26,495 nt of DNA from a virus: the IMG/VR virus record IMGVR_UViG_3300030098_005175, positions 2,143 through 28,637 of that record, one strand, 5' to 3'. Below the pieces are notes generated by a model that saw only the letters and a list, made by a program, of their open reading frames with translations, ran no database searches and was not told the DNA's origin. The translations under genes were made by a program, and so were the position numbers. This document shows positions 5,452-26,495 of the stretch, piece by piece (the stretch's first letter is position 1; each line of letters opens with the position of its first letter).

Positions 5452-5835
5452 TTACTGACTTATGTCTTGATACTGGACATAAAAGAAACTGTTTGAATTA
5501 GTATCCACAGTCAAAGATACTTGAGTTGACGAAGCCGCTACAACAATTCCATTATCGAATTTATCTGGCAAGGGGAGATTGCTGATTGACCTTGTGTCTG
5601 TAGTTCCCACTAATAAAGGCGGCATTGTTGGAACTGTACCATTTGCAGGAAGACTTGCAGCATCAAATACCATTAAATAGAGATTAGAGCCGCCTTTATT
5701 ACTTAAAGCAGCACTATAAAGAATTGCTTTTGAAGCAATTACGACTTTTGAATTTTCCCAAGCTGTAGATTTGGAAACGCTGTAAGCTGATAAAAACCGA
5801 GACCCTTCGGCTTTAGTAGTTTGGACTGAAGGCAT
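5452..5835 (-). CDS. Probable minor virion/fibre-associated protein, 127 aa
   Basis: A beta-rich protein of unknown family: AILYSAALSNKGGSNLYLMV (residues ~38-57), LPLPDKFDNGIVVAASSTQV and a closing NSFFYVQYQDIS. The GIVVxxSSxxxSLTxDTxxxxFFYVQY pattern is one I associate with small structural proteins beside phage fibres or capsid fibres, but I cannot name it. ATG at 5835 with AAAGGAG upstream. A 68-base gap containing a short hairpin separates it from the preceding gene, one of the few non-overlapping joints in the late operon. Confidence 0.55.
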   Translation of the reverse strand: MPSVQTTKAEGSRFLSAYSVSKSTAWENSKVVIASKAILYSAALSNKGGSNLYLMVFDAASLPANGTVPTMPPLLVGTTDTRSISNLPLPDKFDNGIVVAASSTQVSLTVDTNSNSFFYVQYQDISQ

Positions 5836-11394: not shown

Positions 11395-13190
11395 TATGCA
11401 AACTCAAGGGCGTTAACAATAGCCTTTTGCCCTTTGTGGCTGTTTAAGTAGTTGTCTAAAGCATCAGAATCAACAAAATTAACAACATTAACATTTGAAC
11501 CTTTACCCTGATTCATTTGGGCTAAATTGTTAGCGCCTATATTTTGAACCGCTTCCCTTCTCATAACAAATTCACCACCTTCTAAAATAGCTGGTGTTTC
11601 TCCTGCTCCCGGAACTAAACCGCCATCATGAAATTTAGCACCATTTATTTTAGCAATCTGAGCGGCTCCTAATGCTGTCATAGTTCCAGCGTTTACCGCC
11701 CCCCAAATAGGCCCAAGATCAGCAAATCCTTTCATAATAGCGGCCGCTGTACTTACAACAACTTGCATTGATGCAAAAGCTTTATAAGCCTTAGAGTTTT
11801 CACCACCGAAAGCGGCTATAGCATTTGAAATGCCCCCTAAAGCGTTTAATTGAAATTCTTCTTGCCTTTCTGCTAAAGCCTTTTCTTTGTCTTCTTTTTC
11901 TTGTCTAGCTTCCTCTTCTTTAGCTTCTTTCTCTGCTTCTCTTGCCTCTTCCTCTTCTTCCTGTTGCAAAAAGAAAGCCGCATCTTCTTCCCTTTTCTTC
12001 TGCCTAGCTTCGGCCGCTTTTAAGAAAGCCTGTAACTTTTCATCTTCTTTACTAATTTCTTTATCATCATTTTCAGATTTTTTTCCTCCAGTTGCAATTA
12101 AAGCCGCTTGAAGTTTTAAGATTTTAGCATTAATTCCAGCTTGTTTCTTAGCGTTCTCCGCTATTGCTTTTCTTTTTGCTAATTCCTCTTGAAGCAAAGG
12201 AACTTTCTTTTGCATTAACTCATAATCTTTTTGTTCTTGAAGACTTGAAAACTGGCCGCCTTTTTTCCTGTTTTCATTAATGCGCTTCATTTTTTCTTCA
12301 ATTTCGCCTAAAGTTTCAGCGGCTTTTTTATCCCCCATTTTAGCTAATGACTTTTGAAAGTCATTCATTGGATTAACTAAAAACCCAACAAAGCCGCCAA
12401 TATTTTTAAGCGTATCAGATAAAGATTCATTTTCATTAATCCATTTAGTCGTTTTGCTTATAGCCATTGTAAAAGCATCAACTAAAGGTTCAATTATGGG
12501 AATTAATTTTACACCTAATGTTTGAAAAAGGCCTGAAGTTGCAGTTGTTGCTTCCCCTAAAGCATCGGTAAAACCTGCACCTATCAAAGCTGAATCTTTG
12601 GTTATAGTAACCCCAAGATCATCAGCCTGATTCATTAATTTTTCTATTCCATCGCTACCATTATTTAATAATGGTACTAACCTAGCTCCGTATTCTTCCC
12701 CAAGAATCCTAGAAGCTAAAGCGGCCGCTTGCGTTCTATCAGTCATGTTAGAGATAGTATCAGCAACCTCTTTCATAACATCAACATTAGACCTTAATTT
12801 TCCATCTGCTCCCTTTACTTCAATTCCTAGCGCTTTAAAAAAGTCTTTAGCCGCTCCAGTTCCTTTAGCGGTTTCACTCATGTTTCTATTTAAAACACGA
12901 AGGCCACCTTCTAGTTGCTCAATGTTGCCGCCTGATTGTTTTACCGCAAATTCTAATTGTGATAGATTTTTTGTAGAAGTAGCAACTCTTTGACTCATTT
13001 TGTCAAATTTGTCACCAACTGAAGCCGCTCTTACTGCTACAGCACCCATAGCCGCACCAGCCGCAAGCAATGCCTTTCCAGCTAACATTACCCCGGCTCT
13101 CATTTCTTGAGTAGCAACCTCAACCTTTTTAAATTGCGCTGAAGCTTTATCTTTCGCCTGAATTAATAATTCAATTCTGTTTTTAGCCAT
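11394..13190 (-). CDS. Tape measure protein, 598 aa
   Basis: Sets tail length and occupies the tube lumen before DNA ejection. The N-terminus (RIELLIQAKDKASAQFKKVE) is typical of phage tape measures. An Ala/Gly hydrophobic stretch at ~38-55 (AGKALLAAGAAMGAVAVRAA) and further apolar helices near residues 220-290 follow. A long Glu/Lys/Gln-rich coiled-coil region spans ~295-455. The C-terminal motif GGLVPGAGETPAILEGGEFV with MRREAVQNIGANNLAQMNQG is the classic tape-measure end. Six hundred residues would give a tail near 90 nm. ATG at 13190 follows the chaperone stop by 1 base. Two of its three-alanine runs are spelled GCG-GCC-GCT. Confidence 0.9.
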   Translation of the reverse strand: MAKNRIELLIQAKDKASAQFKKVEVATQEMRAGVMLAGKALLAAGAAMGAVAVRAASVGDKFDKMSQRVATSTKNLSQLEFAVKQSGGNIEQLEGGLRVLNRNMSETAKGTGAAKDFFKALGIEVKGADGKLRSNVDVMKEVADTISNMTDRTQAAALASRILGEEYGARLVPLLNNGSDGIEKLMNQADDLGVTITKDSALIGAGFTDALGEATTATSGLFQTLGVKLIPIIEPLVDAFTMAISKTTKWINENESLSDTLKNIGGFVGFLVNPMNDFQKSLAKMGDKKAAETLGEIEEKMKRINENRKKGGQFSSLQEQKDYELMQKKVPLLQEELAKRKAIAENAKKQAGINAKILKLQAALIATGGKKSENDDKEISKEDEKLQAFLKAAEARQKKREEDAAFFLQQEEEEEAREAEKEAKEEEARQEKEDKEKALAERQEEFQLNALGGISNAIAAFGGENSKAYKAFASMQVVVSTAAAIMKGFADLGPIWGAVNAGTMTALGAAQIAKINGAKFHDGGLVPGAGETPAILEGGEFVMRREAVQNIGANNLAQMNQGKGSNVNVVNFVDSDALDNYLNSHKGQKAIVNALEFA

Positions 13191-15584: not shown

Positions 15585-16039
15585 AAGTTCTCTAATCCAA
15601 ATTTCTTTTTTGCTCTTATAACAGCATCATCAAAAATTTCATCAACAGCTATTTCAGCGGTTAGTTTAGCCGCTTTGAAAAAGCCTCTTCTGGCTTCCAT
15701 CGCTGGAGAATAGTTCAAATTAGAAAACACTCTACCAGCCCCACCAATTGACCTAAAATTAGTGGCCACTTTAAACCTTACAGAAGTTCTTAACCTTCCT
15801 GTATCAACAGGAATGAACCCTTTAGGGCTTGTGCTTCCTCTTGGCTCTCCTTTGCCTCTTTGAGATGGAGTTAACCAAGTTCTTTTCTTGCCTTTTTTAG
15901 TTTTTATAGCCCTTCTATGAGCGGCTAAAACAACATTAGTAAGAAACCTATCAAAGGCATTCTTAGAAACAACGTAAGGAAGCTTTGCTAATTCATCAAT
16001 TTTCTTTTTATCAAATTGTAGATTAAAGCCTTCGCTCAT
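15581..16039 (-). CDS. HK97 gp10-like head-tail/tail completion protein, 152 aa
   Basis: The protein contains the hallmark GFIPVDTGRLRTSVRF (residues ~85-100), the PVDTGxLRxS motif of HK97 gp10-type proteins. It follows a very basic segment (RRAIKTKKGKKRTWLTPSQR) and precedes NYSPAMEARRGFF, the usual YAxxxExG-like region. A helical C-terminus ends KKFGLENL. The family works at the head-tail junction or in tail completion. ATG at 16039 overlaps the stop of the small upstream gene (ATGA), and the stop overlaps the terminator gene start in the same way. The insertion of a basic Pro/Gly-rich stretch makes it slightly different from compact members. Confidence 0.8.
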   Translation of the reverse strand: MSEGFNLQFDKKKIDELAKLPYVVSKNAFDRFLTNVVLAAHRRAIKTKKGKKRTWLTPSQRGKGEPRGSTSPKGFIPVDTGRLRTSVRFKVATNFRSIGGAGRVFSNLNYSPAMEARRGFFKAAKLTAEIAVDEIFDDAVIRAKKKFGLENL

Positions 16040-23651: not shown

Positions 23652-23833
23652 TGTAAACCCCTTGGTTTTTGGTCATCGCAAGCCCTTATAGCTTGCACTA
23701 ATAGTAAGCCTTTGTTAATCAGGCTAGTTAATGAATCGTCTGTTACTTCATAACGTCTATAATTATAATCGTAGTAATACGTAACAGAGTAATTTTCTCC
23801 GTTTATTGTTACTTCCTTAGTTATTTTATTCAT
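23648..23833 (-). CDS. Small hypothetical protein, 61 aa
   Basis: The protein is beta-rich at its start (KITKEVTINGENYSVTYYYD, YNYRRYEVTDDSL) with many tyrosines, then a helix (SLINKGLLLVQAIRAC). It is unrecognised. It is joined by ATGA overlaps to both the J-domain gene upstream and the exonuclease gene downstream, so the three are co-translated. This tight coupling suggests a shared process with the exonuclease, but there is no direct evidence of function. Confidence 0.65.
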   Translation of the reverse strand: MNKITKEVTINGENYSVTYYYDYNYRRYEVTDDSLTSLINKGLLLVQAIRACDDQKPRGLQ

Positions 23834-24282
23834 GCTTCAACCTCTAAAAAGCCTATAAAGCCTCTGTGAATTTCTCTTACTTCTTGCGCTCTTTTTTGAG
23901 CTATCCAGTTAGCGACCTCAGCCGCATTATCACCAATCATTTTAACTTGACTCTTAGGAATCCATATTTCTAAGCCCTTAAAGCCTTGGTGAAAGTCTCC
24001 AGTAACATCTAATAAATAAGCCTTAGGCGTTTCTTTTTTTATGCTAGCCTCAATAATAACCACTTTTCTAGTTTTAACATCATAAAGCCTTTTCTGTTTG
24101 CTATCGCTTAAAATTTTGTAAGCTTCAGCAATCAGCTTAAATCTTTTCTCAGCACTAGCCTTTTTATTATTATCTGGGTGATATTTCTTAGCCATTGTTC
24201 TATAGGCTGTTTTTATTTCAGCCTCAGTTGAATTAGGCTTAATATTTAAAGCTTTATAGGGGTTTAAATCTTCCAATTCCAT
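23830..24282 (-). CDS. J-domain protein with C-terminal WIPKSQ-type domain, 150 aa
   Basis: Residues ~6-68 form a DnaJ J-domain: NPYKALNIKPNSTEAEIKTA, YRTMAKKYHPDNN with the HPD at 35-37, and FKLIAEAYKILSDSKQKRLY. It should stimulate the ATPase of host DnaK. The Gly/Phe, zinc and client domains of full DnaJ are absent. The C-terminal part (residues ~77-135) instead has IEASIKKETPKAYLLDVTGD, LEIWIPKSQVKMI and VANWIAQKRAQE. The KAxL...WIPKSQ pattern is one I recognise from small early phage proteins of unknown function. AGGGG precedes the ATG at 24282. A likely role is recruiting host chaperone to replication or recombination proteins, as an inference. Confidence 0.85.
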   Translation of the reverse strand: MELEDLNPYKALNIKPNSTEAEIKTAYRTMAKKYHPDNNKKASAEKRFKLIAEAYKILSDSKQKRLYDVKTRKVVIIEASIKKETPKAYLLDVTGDFHQGFKGLEIWIPKSQVKMIGDNAAEVANWIAQKRAQEVREIHRGFIGFLEVEA

Positions 24283-24477: not shown

Positions 24478-24495
24478 CAGCCCCCGAAGGGGCTG
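24478..24495 (-). terminator. UUCG-capped GC hairpin between early genes (terminator or mRNA stabiliser)
   Basis: On the minus strand CAGCCCC and GGGGCTG pair perfectly over 7 bases around a TTCG loop, the very stable C(UUCG)G tetraloop form. It stands out in an AT-rich gap, 10 bases after the stop of the 89-residue gene and 25 bases before the next start. The following bases (TAAATTATAG) are not a U-run, so full termination is doubtful. Attenuation or protection of the upstream mRNA 3' end fits better. Confidence 0.55.
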
Positions 24496-24775: not shown

Positions 24776-24788
24776 CTTTGGCTCCTTT

Positions 24789-24801
24789 GGGGCTTTGCCC
24801 C
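24789..24801 (-). promoter_or_regulatory. Small GC hairpin in the leader before an early gene's ribosome binding site
   Basis: GGGGC and GCCCC pair around a 3-base loop (read on the minus strand GGGGC-AAA-GCCCC), ending 3 bases before AAAGGAG of the gene starting at 24775. It would be near the 5' end of the transcript from the promoter at 24815-24843. A translational control or mRNA 5'-end stability role is possible; the sequence alone does not decide. Confidence 0.35.
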
Positions 24802-24814
24802 CCTTTCTTTAATC

Positions 24815-24843
24815 AATATAATATAATTATTTTATTAAATCAA
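24815..24843 (-). promoter_or_regulatory. Candidate sigma70 promoter for the right early operon
   Basis: On the minus strand TTGATT (24838-24843) is followed by a 17-base spacer and TATATT (24815-24820), 4 of 6 and 5 of 6 to consensus. The start would be near 24808, giving a 33-base leader to the ATG at 24775. The region is very AT-rich, so chance matches are likely, but spacing and position fit. The word AAATGTTGCAA lies just upstream of the -35. Confidence 0.45.
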
Positions 24844-24849
24844 TACATT

Positions 24850-24860
24850 TTGCAACATTT
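24850..24860 (-). repeat. 11-base word shared by both early control regions (other copy 931-941)
   Basis: AAATGTTGCAA on the minus strand occurs here and at 931-941, each time in the gap upstream of a leftward early operon. In the left copy its TTGCAA doubles as the -35 candidate; here it lies 7 bases upstream of the -35 candidate. TTGCAA is itself a palindrome. It could be an operator or activator site common to both operons. Confidence 0.4.
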
Positions 24861-24876
24861 TGTTTCATTTCTCATA

Positions 24877-24906
24877 TTGACTCAGTTAAGCCTGAATTAG
24901 TATAAT
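24877..24906 (+). promoter_or_regulatory. Near-consensus sigma70 promoter directed against all genes
   Basis: TTGACT (24877-24882, 5 of 6), an 18-base spacer, and a perfect TATAAT (24901-24906) on the plus strand. This is the best promoter match I found in the window. The start would be near 24913. No plus-strand gene with a ribosome binding site follows, so the product would be a noncoding or antisense RNA running toward the helicase 3' end. A palindromic TGCTTTAGCA begins at the last base of the -10, well placed for a repressor. Confidence 0.6.
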
Positions 24907-25077
24907 GCTTTAGCAGCCAGATAAAGCTATTTAATGAATCGATTAGATGAATTAAAAGATTTAACTGGTAATGATTTATTTATAAATTATTATTGCTATA
25001 GCTTTGGTTTATTATGTTTACTTAATAAACTTTAGCTGAATGAATAATGAAGCTAAACTATTGCTGTGCTAAAGCAT
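24904..25077. repeat. 12-base inverted repeat pair enclosing further nested inverted repeats
   Basis: AATGCTTTAGCA (24904-24915) and TGCTAAAGCATT (25066-25077) are perfect inverted copies 150 bases apart. Inside lie AAAGCTAT/ATAGCTTT (24923-24930 and 24998-25005), GTTTATTA/TAATAAAC (25007-25014 and 25023-25030, 8-base loop), TTTAGCT/AGCTAAA (25031-25037 and 25051-25057), and AATGATTTA/TAAATTATT (24970-24978 and 24983-24991, one G-U). The pairs are mutually compatible, so a branched RNA could form. Only about 3 bases of the outer left arm would be transcribed from the promoter at 24877-24906, so the outer pair may act as DNA sites. Confidence 0.5.
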
Positions 25078-25148
25078 TGTTTTATTTTTCTAAAAGGGCT
25101 TTTCTGCCTGTTTTGAGCTACAAATACCCCCTGATAATTGAGAATTTA

Positions 25149-25210
25149 GAGAAGTGTCAAACTGTCAAATAGTGTCAAGACTAAAATTTGACAGTTTCTT
25201 GACACTTCTC
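25149..25210. repeat. Long imperfect inverted repeat built from five TGTCAA/TTGACA motifs
   Basis: The left arm 25149-25170 (GAGAAGTGTCAA + ACTGTCAAAT) and right arm 25186-25210 match perfectly when reversed, except for 3 extra bases (TTC, 25196-25198) in the right arm. TGTCAA occurs at 25155, 25163 and 25173, and its complement TTGACA at 25188 and 25199. Starts are 8, 10 and 11 bases apart within each orientation, close to one helical turn. It begins 6 bases after the helicase stop. No U-run follows, so it is not a normal terminator. Iterons of an origin or a multi-site operator fit; TTGACA is also the -35 consensus. Confidence 0.65.
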
Positions 25211-25216
25211 CAAGTG

Positions 25217-26495
25217 CTATTCTTTTAAGGTGTAAAATTCGATTGTTCTATTGTTTGGGGCTTTTTCTATGTACTTAATTATTTCCCCAGCTTCTGACAA
25301 AGTATTTAACACTTCTTCTAAATCTCTTGAGGTTAACCAGTAAGCTTTTCTTCTTAAGTCCCTTTTTCTAATCTTTCCAGACTCTTCTATTACTCCCCTA
25401 ATCTTTTTAACCTTGGCTTCCGTATAATTTACAGAGAGATTTTTATTCAATACTGATTTTAATTGGTTCATTGAGTATTCAGCTAATGCCATACCAAAAG
25501 ATAAATCTTCAAAATCAATAAAGGGTTTAAGTGGGTTTCTAGCTATTGCTTGAATCATTGCAATCTTCTGAGCCTGTTCTAATTTTCTGGCTAACAAAGC
25601 CCTTTGGTTGTCATCTTCTAAGCTGTTTATTTCTTCTAAATGGCTTTCCTGTTGCCCTCTCCAATAATGAAGAACTTCATCTTCAGTATCTATTTCTTTA
25701 ACAACAGGCATTTCTAGTTCTGTTCTAGGCTTAAGCTTTGCCAACTCTAAAATTAATTCTTTATTGTTAAGACTAGGCCTATCTTTAGCCTTCTTATTGA
25801 GCTTGGGTCTTTTCTCACCCCTTAAGAATAAAAGCCTTCCTGTGAATCCTTTGGCAAGTAATTCTTCACTCATAAAGCCGTTAAAGCCTGAAGGGGTTGT
25901 TGTTGCTAATATAGAAACGTAAGGATTCCAACAGGCTCCCACAGTACCGCTAGTTTTAGACCTTTCACCACTATAAAAATCTAACGAAGCGGTGTAAAGC
26001 TCGTTCAATGTTTCCAAAATGTTTTTCTGGTAGCTTTGCCCATTAAAAGAGGTCATCTTTTCAAACTGGGCTGAAGCCTCATCAATAACATCTAGTCTTT
26101 GACGCTGTTCTGGAAGTAGATCAATAAAGGCAACATTAGAAGCATATTTGCCTAAGCCTAAAAGCTCCTGCCTCCTGTAGCCATGCAAAAGCCTTTTTAT
26201 TAAAATCTGGGGGTCATTCTTCCCGGTTCCAGACTCCCCCACCATAAAGCAATAAAGATTAGGGCTTTTACCTTGCCATTTATAAATATTTCCGCTTAAT
26301 ACAGAAAAGAATGAAAGGCTAGCGGCTAAACTATAAGCCTCTTGCGGCAAGTGGGAATTGCTATAAATATAGTCTTGAACATCTTTAAGCAAACCAACAG
26401 GTTTAGGCAAAAGCTCCTTTTTAGCCTCTTTTTTGATGTTAATAGGCACTTCATCAAAGGAATTAACTATAATTTCCTTTTTTAAACGCCCTTCC
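25217..26495 (-). CDS. DUF3987-like replicative helicase/primase-type P-loop ATPase (5' end cut by window edge)
   Basis: Probable replication helicase. The Walker A motif FMVGESGTGKN lies about 70 residues after the GTG at 26449, and a Walker B-like LDVIDEASAQFE about 45 residues later. ILATTTPSGFNGFMSEELLA and KGFTGRLLFLRGEKRPKLNK form the sensor/arginine region typical of DUF3987 proteins. The C-terminus has a winged-helix-like end (KIRKRDLRRKAYWLTSRDLE, EVLNTLSEAGEIIKYIEK). The frame continues without a stop upstream of 26449 to the edge (reading EGRLKKEIIVNSFDEVPINI), so GTG 26449 is probably internal and a primase or other N-terminal part lies outside. It ends just before the repeat-rich control region. 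Confidence 0.75.
   Translation of the reverse strand, partial: EGRLKKEIIVNSFDEVPINIKKEAKKELLPKPVGLLKDVQDYIYSNSHLPQEAYSLAASLSFFSVLSGNIYKWQGKSPNLYCFMVGESGTGKNDPQILIKRLLHGYRRQELLGLGKYASNVAFIDLLPEQRQRLDVIDEASAQFEKMTSFNGQSYQKNILETLNELYTASLDFYSGERSKTSGTVGACWNPYVSILATTTPSGFNGFMSEELLAKGFTGRLLFLRGEKRPKLNKKAKDRPSLNNKELILELAKLKPRTELEMPVVKEIDTEDEVLHYWRGQQESHLEEINSLEDDNQRALLARKLEQAQKIAMIQAIARNPLKPFIDFEDLSFGMALAEYSMNQLKSVLNKNLSVNYTEAKVKKIRGVIEESGKIRKRDLRRKAYWLTSRDLEEVLNTLSEAGEIIKYIEKAPNNRTIEFYTLKE

Follow-up and report, generated by a model that had tools for sequence, protein, structure and literature searches.

Introduction

Iteron origins that lie downstream of a gene for an initiator helicase are an already known kind, represented by the Staphylococcus aureus pathogenicity islands (SaPI) and the staphylococcal cassette chromosome mec (SCCmec). 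In SaPI origins the iterons lie directly downstream of rep and are read by its C-terminal domain (Ubeda et al. 2007, as related in PMC7581432), and in SCCmec the Cch2 protein binds repeats downstream of its own gene in vitro through its C-terminal domain, at an origin that is putative (PMC7581432). For pRN1 a stem-loop downstream of the primpol-helicase gene is required, and a stem-loop located 3' of the BIP-1 phage replication gene is noted by the same authors (PMC4234260). Here we describe a 441-bp intergenic gap (24776-25216) beside a primase-helicase gene in a stretch of 26,495 nucleotides, hereafter the window, that covers positions 2143-28637 of the 28,899-base virus record IMGVR_UViG_3300030098_005175. 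An earlier note on this DNA had read part of the gap as an orphan rightward promoter leading into a structured, gene-free segment that would specify a regulatory or antisense RNA. Our analysis of the sequence suggests, with a probability of about 0.6, that the gap is the replication origin of this phage, at which the primase-helicase would bind five short sites and an adjoining AT-rich segment would open. The best reading appears to be an iteron-type origin in which the segment singled out earlier forms the AT-rich, hairpin-forming part. We favor an origin over an RNA gene because the gap ends in five opposed repeats and because distantly related phages carry clusters of other sequence at the same spot. 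No paper describing origins of PrimPol/DUF3987 phages was found in a literature search that missed most subscription journals and does not establish novelty.

Results

A compact dyad of five sites follows the primase-helicase gene

The end of the gap that adjoins the primase-helicase gene is a dyad composed of five ASTGTCAAR sites; three of them face one way, spaced 8 and 10 bp, and the opposite two are 11 bp apart. The site nearest the gene lies about 10 bp past the stop codon and the entire opposed cluster falls within about 65 bp of it. These 54 bp hold every ASTGTCAAR in the 26.5 kb as well as five of its nine copies of TGTCAA. The uniqueness of ASTGTCAAR is partly circular because the motif was defined from the sites themselves, and a scan with any 6-mer is the fairer test. 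When at least five copies with at least two per orientation were demanded within 60 bp, this place was the only opposed cluster in the 26.5 kb and none appeared in 100 shuffles, under thresholds (five copies; 60 bp here and 140 bp in relatives) that were chosen after the data were seen. When the best single 7-mer is counted instead, the region does not stand out because the sites differ at one position; it is the 6-mer core that picks it out. Additionally, the window has four perfect inverted repeats with arms of 12 bp or more that lie within 200 bp of each other, and the gap holds three of them where shuffles of the gap predict 0.018. The earlier note made no mention of the dyad, which is the most telling feature of its neighborhood. 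The only perfect inverted repeat of that size outside the gap is one of 13 bp, TAATAAAGGCGGC, at 5611-5701 inside a gene.

Distant phages carry comparable clusters after homologous genes

Using the window's own protein together with its homologue in the Vibrio phage VpKK5, we collected 25 annotated phages with homologous genes and scanned these loci for opposed clusters within a span of 140 bp. Such clusters occur 15-88 bp after the primase stop codon in 5 of the 25 (RHph_TM3_3_14B, ART, LB6, Baskent_P4_1 and Axy20), while only two lie elsewhere in the 25 loci and just 1.6% of shuffled loci contain one. Looser criteria raise the number with arrays after the primase gene to 7 of 25 by adding VpKK5 and 1.117.O, the latter with a weaker array. 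In VpKK5 (NC_026610, 4321-4620) the primase gene is directly followed by opposed arrays with nine copies of AGGGAAA, at a place where nothing is annotated, and these were left out of the opposed-cluster scan by a low-complexity filter. In ART, LB6, Baskent, Axy20 and VpKK5 each side of the core array consists of two to three sites at a spacing of mostly 7-9 bp, and AT-rich DNA either separates the arrays or lies beyond them; the motif is different in each phage. The compared phages are not fully independent of one another.

The pair LB6 and Axy20 is informative as to which part of the protein may read the repeats. The two phages have a common backbone in this region and the N-terminal part of their proteins is 95-100% identical, but the repeat has been exchanged (GCGTTGTATG versus GTGTTTTCGG) and the C-terminal part is just ~67-78% identical. 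An iteron swap accompanied by C-terminal divergence is what one would expect of a C-terminus that reads the iterons, and the pair has the look of a natural switch in origin specificity. The region lies at 4336-4640 in L037 (OQ817840) and at 4883-5190 in L047 (MK962637), the two related Achromobacter phages.

A folded AT-rich segment adjoins the sites

Next to the sites is a segment (24898-25085) that is 24% GC as compared with 37% for the window. Four stem pairs that had been proposed within it (24923/24998, 24970/24983, 25007/25023 and 25031/25051) are, by eye, indeed present in the sequence, with 24970/24983 needing one G-U pair. The minimum-energy fold of 24913-25090 (-39.9 kcal/mol) has a different arrangement from these stems and is better than that of shuffled controls, with z of -3.3 to -3.6 on the plus strand and -2.9 on the minus strand. 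These values rise to -6.1 and -5.6, respectively, upon widening to 24904-25078 because a perfect 12-bp closing stem (AATGCTTTAGCA/TGCTAAAGCATT) is then included, which is the strongest element of the segment and is missing from the earlier list. In a whole-window scan of 188-nt folds the segment ranks first and fourth of 354 window-strands. The excess structure is equal on both strands (z about -6 each), which fits inverted repeats in DNA and indicates no strand preference. A pattern scan with the closing stem gave 17 matches that were judged unrelated, the intervening sequences being unlike that of the window and, by eye, coding-like. Two segments within genes, 15601-15788 and 12301-12488, both on the minus strand, also fold far better than shuffles (z -6.8 and -5.7, with 20 shuffles each).

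The neighboring gene and the genomic setting

The adjoining gene runs past the right end of the window and across N gaps into pieces that match Prim-Pol (PF09250, E 2e-14) and PriCT_1 (PF08708, E 3e-6), such that the protein is a fusion of PrimPol, PriCT_1 and a DUF3987 helicase. Ten-N gaps occur in the record (L007 at ~253-262, 1225 and 2253; L008 at ~2639-2648), and the full-length protein is unreadable because two of them fall within the gene. A model of its last 92 residues has as best matches in PDB mostly winged-helix regulators (MarR, SarA, Fur and BlaI), none of them below E 0.001, and suggests with medium confidence that the C-terminus is winged-helix-like and a candidate reader of the iterons. 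An AlphaFold model of a 410-residue piece, with a predicted local distance difference test score (pLDDT) of 35, is unusable.

The genome is probably a closed circle of ~28.65 kb except for a few N gaps, since the first 252 bases of the record are identical to the last 252 and 10-N gaps border this end repeat on its inner sides. It encodes an HK97-type capsid, terminase, RecE/YqaJ exonuclease, Sak-like annealing protein, RusA-like resolvase and the primase-helicase, as well as small helix-turn-helix (HTH) or excisionase-like proteins. The claim that all genes are leftward holds for every called gene of the whole record. The gap described here is the longest intergenic gap of the window; an apparent gap at 1-499 was ruled out as it is the annealing-protein gene. 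Its interior was correctly called gene-free, as the sole ATG open reading frame of more than 30 residues (24934-25035, plus strand, 33 residues) looks noncoding and was rejected because it has a noncoding-like codon score and no Shine-Dalgarno-like site, a feature present for 25 of the 32 genes checked. Two GC-rich hairpins (24478-24495 and 24789-24801) lie just upstream of leftward gene starts; they are called terminator-like on the plus strand and are close to ribosome-binding sites on the minus strand. The replication and recombination gene block also includes a DnaJ-domain protein (23830-24282), and Achromobacter phage ART too has an annotated DnaJ-like gene (L036 241-504) near its primase gene.

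Relatives of the gap itself were sought at several levels. At the DNA level none was found in phages, the searches of plasmids and phages returning just short AT-rich chance matches with E up to 1. Among IMG/VR proteins there was no relative of the helicase, while those of TerL (~40% identity), capsid (22-23%) and exonuclease (29%) come from genomes in none of which the gap is alignable. A relative close enough for covariation or site footprinting was not found in phages, plasmids or IMG/VR.

Table 1. Features in and beside the gap, in window coordinates.
Feature	Position	Strand	Remarks
Second very AT-rich stretch, far end of gap	24810-24875		GC down to 12% in 40 bp
Sigma-70-like promoter match, TTGACT-18-TATAAT	24877-24906	+	11/12; crosses AT-rich segment toward iteron sites; may be chance
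AT-rich segment that could form a closed multi-branch cruciform or fold as a single strand; proposed melting/loading part of the origin	24898-25085		24% GC; z -5.7 (+), -6.2 (-)
Closing stem, left arm AATGCTTTAGCA	24904-24915		Overlaps putative promoter -10 box
Inner hairpin 1	24916-24970		z -5.2 (+), -3.6 (-)
Inner hairpin, long and imperfect	24988-25052		z -4.2 (+), -3.9 (-)
Closing stem, right arm TGCTAAAGCATT	25067-25078		Perfect 12-bp pairing with AATGCTTTAGCA
Dyad of two nested 12-bp inverted repeats (25149-25160/25199-25210; 25159-25170/25186-25197)	25149-25210		Directly after primase-helicase stop; z -6.7/-7.4
Five iteron-like ASTGTCAAR sites	25153-25206	+ (25153-25161, 25161-25169, 25171-25179); - (25187-25195, 25198-25206)	Window's only five
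Last 92 residues, predicted helix-strand-helix-helix-wing, candidate iteron-binding domain	25217-25495	-	AlphaFold2 single-sequence model, pLDDT 66
C-terminal part of PrimPol-PriCT-helicase gene (DUF3987 core and C-terminal winged-helix-like domain)	25217-26449	-	phrog_3022 DNA primase E 2e-57; PF13148 E 6e-12

Discussion

How the proposed origin might work and what weighs against it

What is observed in the DNA itself is the clustering of the sites, the dyads, the richness in AT, a location directly after the primase-helicase gene and the recurrence of this layout, with other motifs, after homologous genes in several phages. We infer binding of the primase-helicase to these sites, opening of the duplex and initiation of replication at this place. 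In the mechanism that we propose, which is modeled on what has been published for SaPI Rep and SCCmec Cch2 (PMC7581432), the primase-helicase would bind the five opposed sites through its winged-helix-like C-terminal domain and assemble there, after which the duplex would open in the adjoining AT-rich, palindrome-rich segment, perhaps with extrusion of hairpins. The helicase would then load at this segment, with either the PrimPol domain or the host priming synthesis. Should the rightward promoter be genuine, one may speculate that transcription over the AT-rich part could help to open or prime the origin.

Several observations weigh against this reading. In 18 of the 25 homologous phages no clear array follows the gene, so that within the family the layout recurs without being universal. 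The sites of the window are confined to one tight 54-bp dyad as opposed to two arrays ~80 bp apart in several of the relatives, and the AT-rich parts of the relatives do not exhibit a comparable excess of folding, which indicates that the cruciform itself is not conserved. The gene homology on which the comparison depends is distant (23-30% identity), and no close relative confirms an origin. The winged-helix assignment comes from a single-sequence model of medium confidence that has no significant structure match. Finally, third-position GC skew does not single out the gap.

Alternative explanations

The foremost alternative, which we consider unlikely, is that a phage regulator, such as one of the small HTH proteins, uses the five-site dyad as its operator to control the leftward genes, with the AT-rich segment as promoter or leader. 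The core TGTCAA reads as the -35 consensus TTGACA on the complementary strand, the gene that follows the gap is leftward, with weak leftward promoter-like sites at 24843-24815 and 24855-24826, and the phage does encode small HTH or excisionase-like proteins that could serve as such a regulator. However, the sites come directly after the primase-helicase stop codon, the next start codon is ~375 bp away and there is no good leftward promoter beside them. Moreover, comparable clusters follow homologous primase genes in phages that have different downstream genes.

The remaining alternatives depend on RNA, and most of them on the promoter match. The match is where the earlier note had placed it and is the best in the window, but 1.17 matches of at least 11/12 are expected by chance per window (dinucleotide shuffles of the whole window, both strands), and 3.4% of shuffles of the 441-bp gap alone contain at least one match that is this good or better. 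By this measure the match does not stand out in the window and is mildly unusual when the gap is taken alone. Furthermore, the -10 box (24901-24906) runs into the left arm of the closing stem (24904-24915) at its outer end, and a transcript starting at ~24912-24914 would consequently miss most of the strongest stem of the segment. A transcript from this promoter is possible. That it would constitute a structured noncoding RNA or be antisense to the primase-helicase mRNA we regard as very improbable, even though the plus strand from the expected start does fold better than shuffles. A promoter at chance level for the window, a start inside the strongest stem and an excess of structure that is equal on both strands all argue against an RNA gene. 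The T-rich run at 25079-25089 that might have ended such a transcript is present, but no intrinsic-terminator-like site is called there on the plus strand. Rfam gives no match to the segment above the gathering score, and a conserved antisense promoter was not found in the seven phages with comparable origin-like regions. The RNA-gene reading of the segment is weak, the promoter match and the fold being all of its evidence and both being accommodated by an origin. The interpretation offered earlier is partly supported overall: the segment passes the energy comparison that the note had set, but the inference of an RNA read from an orphan promoter is unsupported.

The same promoter could instead act within an origin. 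In one version, of similarly low probability, the origin would be RNA-primed or activated by transcription, with the rightward promoter transcribing the folded segment toward the sites and the RNA priming or opening it. The match does lie on the side of the AT-rich segment away from the iterons and is directed toward them, and there are precedents in the noncoding-RNA origins of mycobacterial cluster A prophages (PMC7157519) and the R-loop origins of T4 (PMC3016281). However, a promoter match at chance level for the window is the sole support for this version, and it is not seen in the relatives. A composite arrangement, in which an initiator on the five-site dyad and a rightward transcript through the folded segment together open or prime the origin, RNA and origin being two halves of one switch, strikes us as no less doubtful. 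Least probable of all is an RNA element of the leftward transcripts, the dyad and multi-branch structure acting in the 3' region of the primase-helicase mRNA or in the leader of the next gene as a processing site, stabilizer or structured RNA; the genes are all leftward, the closing stem is complete on the minus strand and z is about -5.6 for 24904-25078 and -7.4 for the dyad, but an RNA hairpin needs no five copies of one 9-bp motif, no T-run follows the dyad and Rfam gives no match.

If the gap is indeed an origin, then it would provide the position and recognition motif for the start of replication in a phage that has no close relative in the collections searched. It would also direct attention, in other phages that have PrimPol/DUF3987 primase-helicases, to the first 200 bp after the gene. 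Additionally, the swapped iterons and diverged C-terminus of LB6 and Axy20 make the origin-reading part of these initiators directly testable.

Comparison with known systems

The cluster A prophages of mycobacteria (PMC7157519) resemble this locus in having a noncoding region, possibly transcribed, that is tied to replication; they differ in that there is no Rep protein and a shown transcript there, whereas a primase-helicase is encoded next door here. The locus also resembles pRN1 and BIP-1 (PMC4234260), in which PrimPol, a helicase and a winged helix at the C-terminus are likewise combined and a large stem-loop follows closely downstream of the gene. In contrast to this locus, which is marked most clearly by its opposed sites and has its AT-rich folded segment apart from them, these systems are described without origin iterons, and their helicase is of SF3 rather than DUF3987. 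In the six phages ART, LB6, Axy20, Baskent_P4_1, VpKK5 and RHph_TM3_3_14B, as here, a homologous PrimPol/DUF3987-type gene is directly followed by opposed iteron arrays with AT-rich DNA adjoining, in regions that are not annotated as origins in the stretches consulted. They differ in having other motifs, usually in two arrays, and no comparable folded AT-rich segment. As in SCCmec, repeats occupy the intergenic region after a helicase gene, a region bound there by the C-terminal domain of the helicase Cch2 (PMC7581432), while here the repeats are five opposed ASTGTCAAR sites. From the SaPI origins, as related in PMC7581432, the locus differs in helicase family and iteron, in the fusion of primase with helicase, in the gathering of the sites into one compact dyad and in a function that is putative here. 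What the two have in common are short repeats directly downstream of an initiator-helicase gene and a C-terminal domain that reads them in SaPI and is a candidate reader here.
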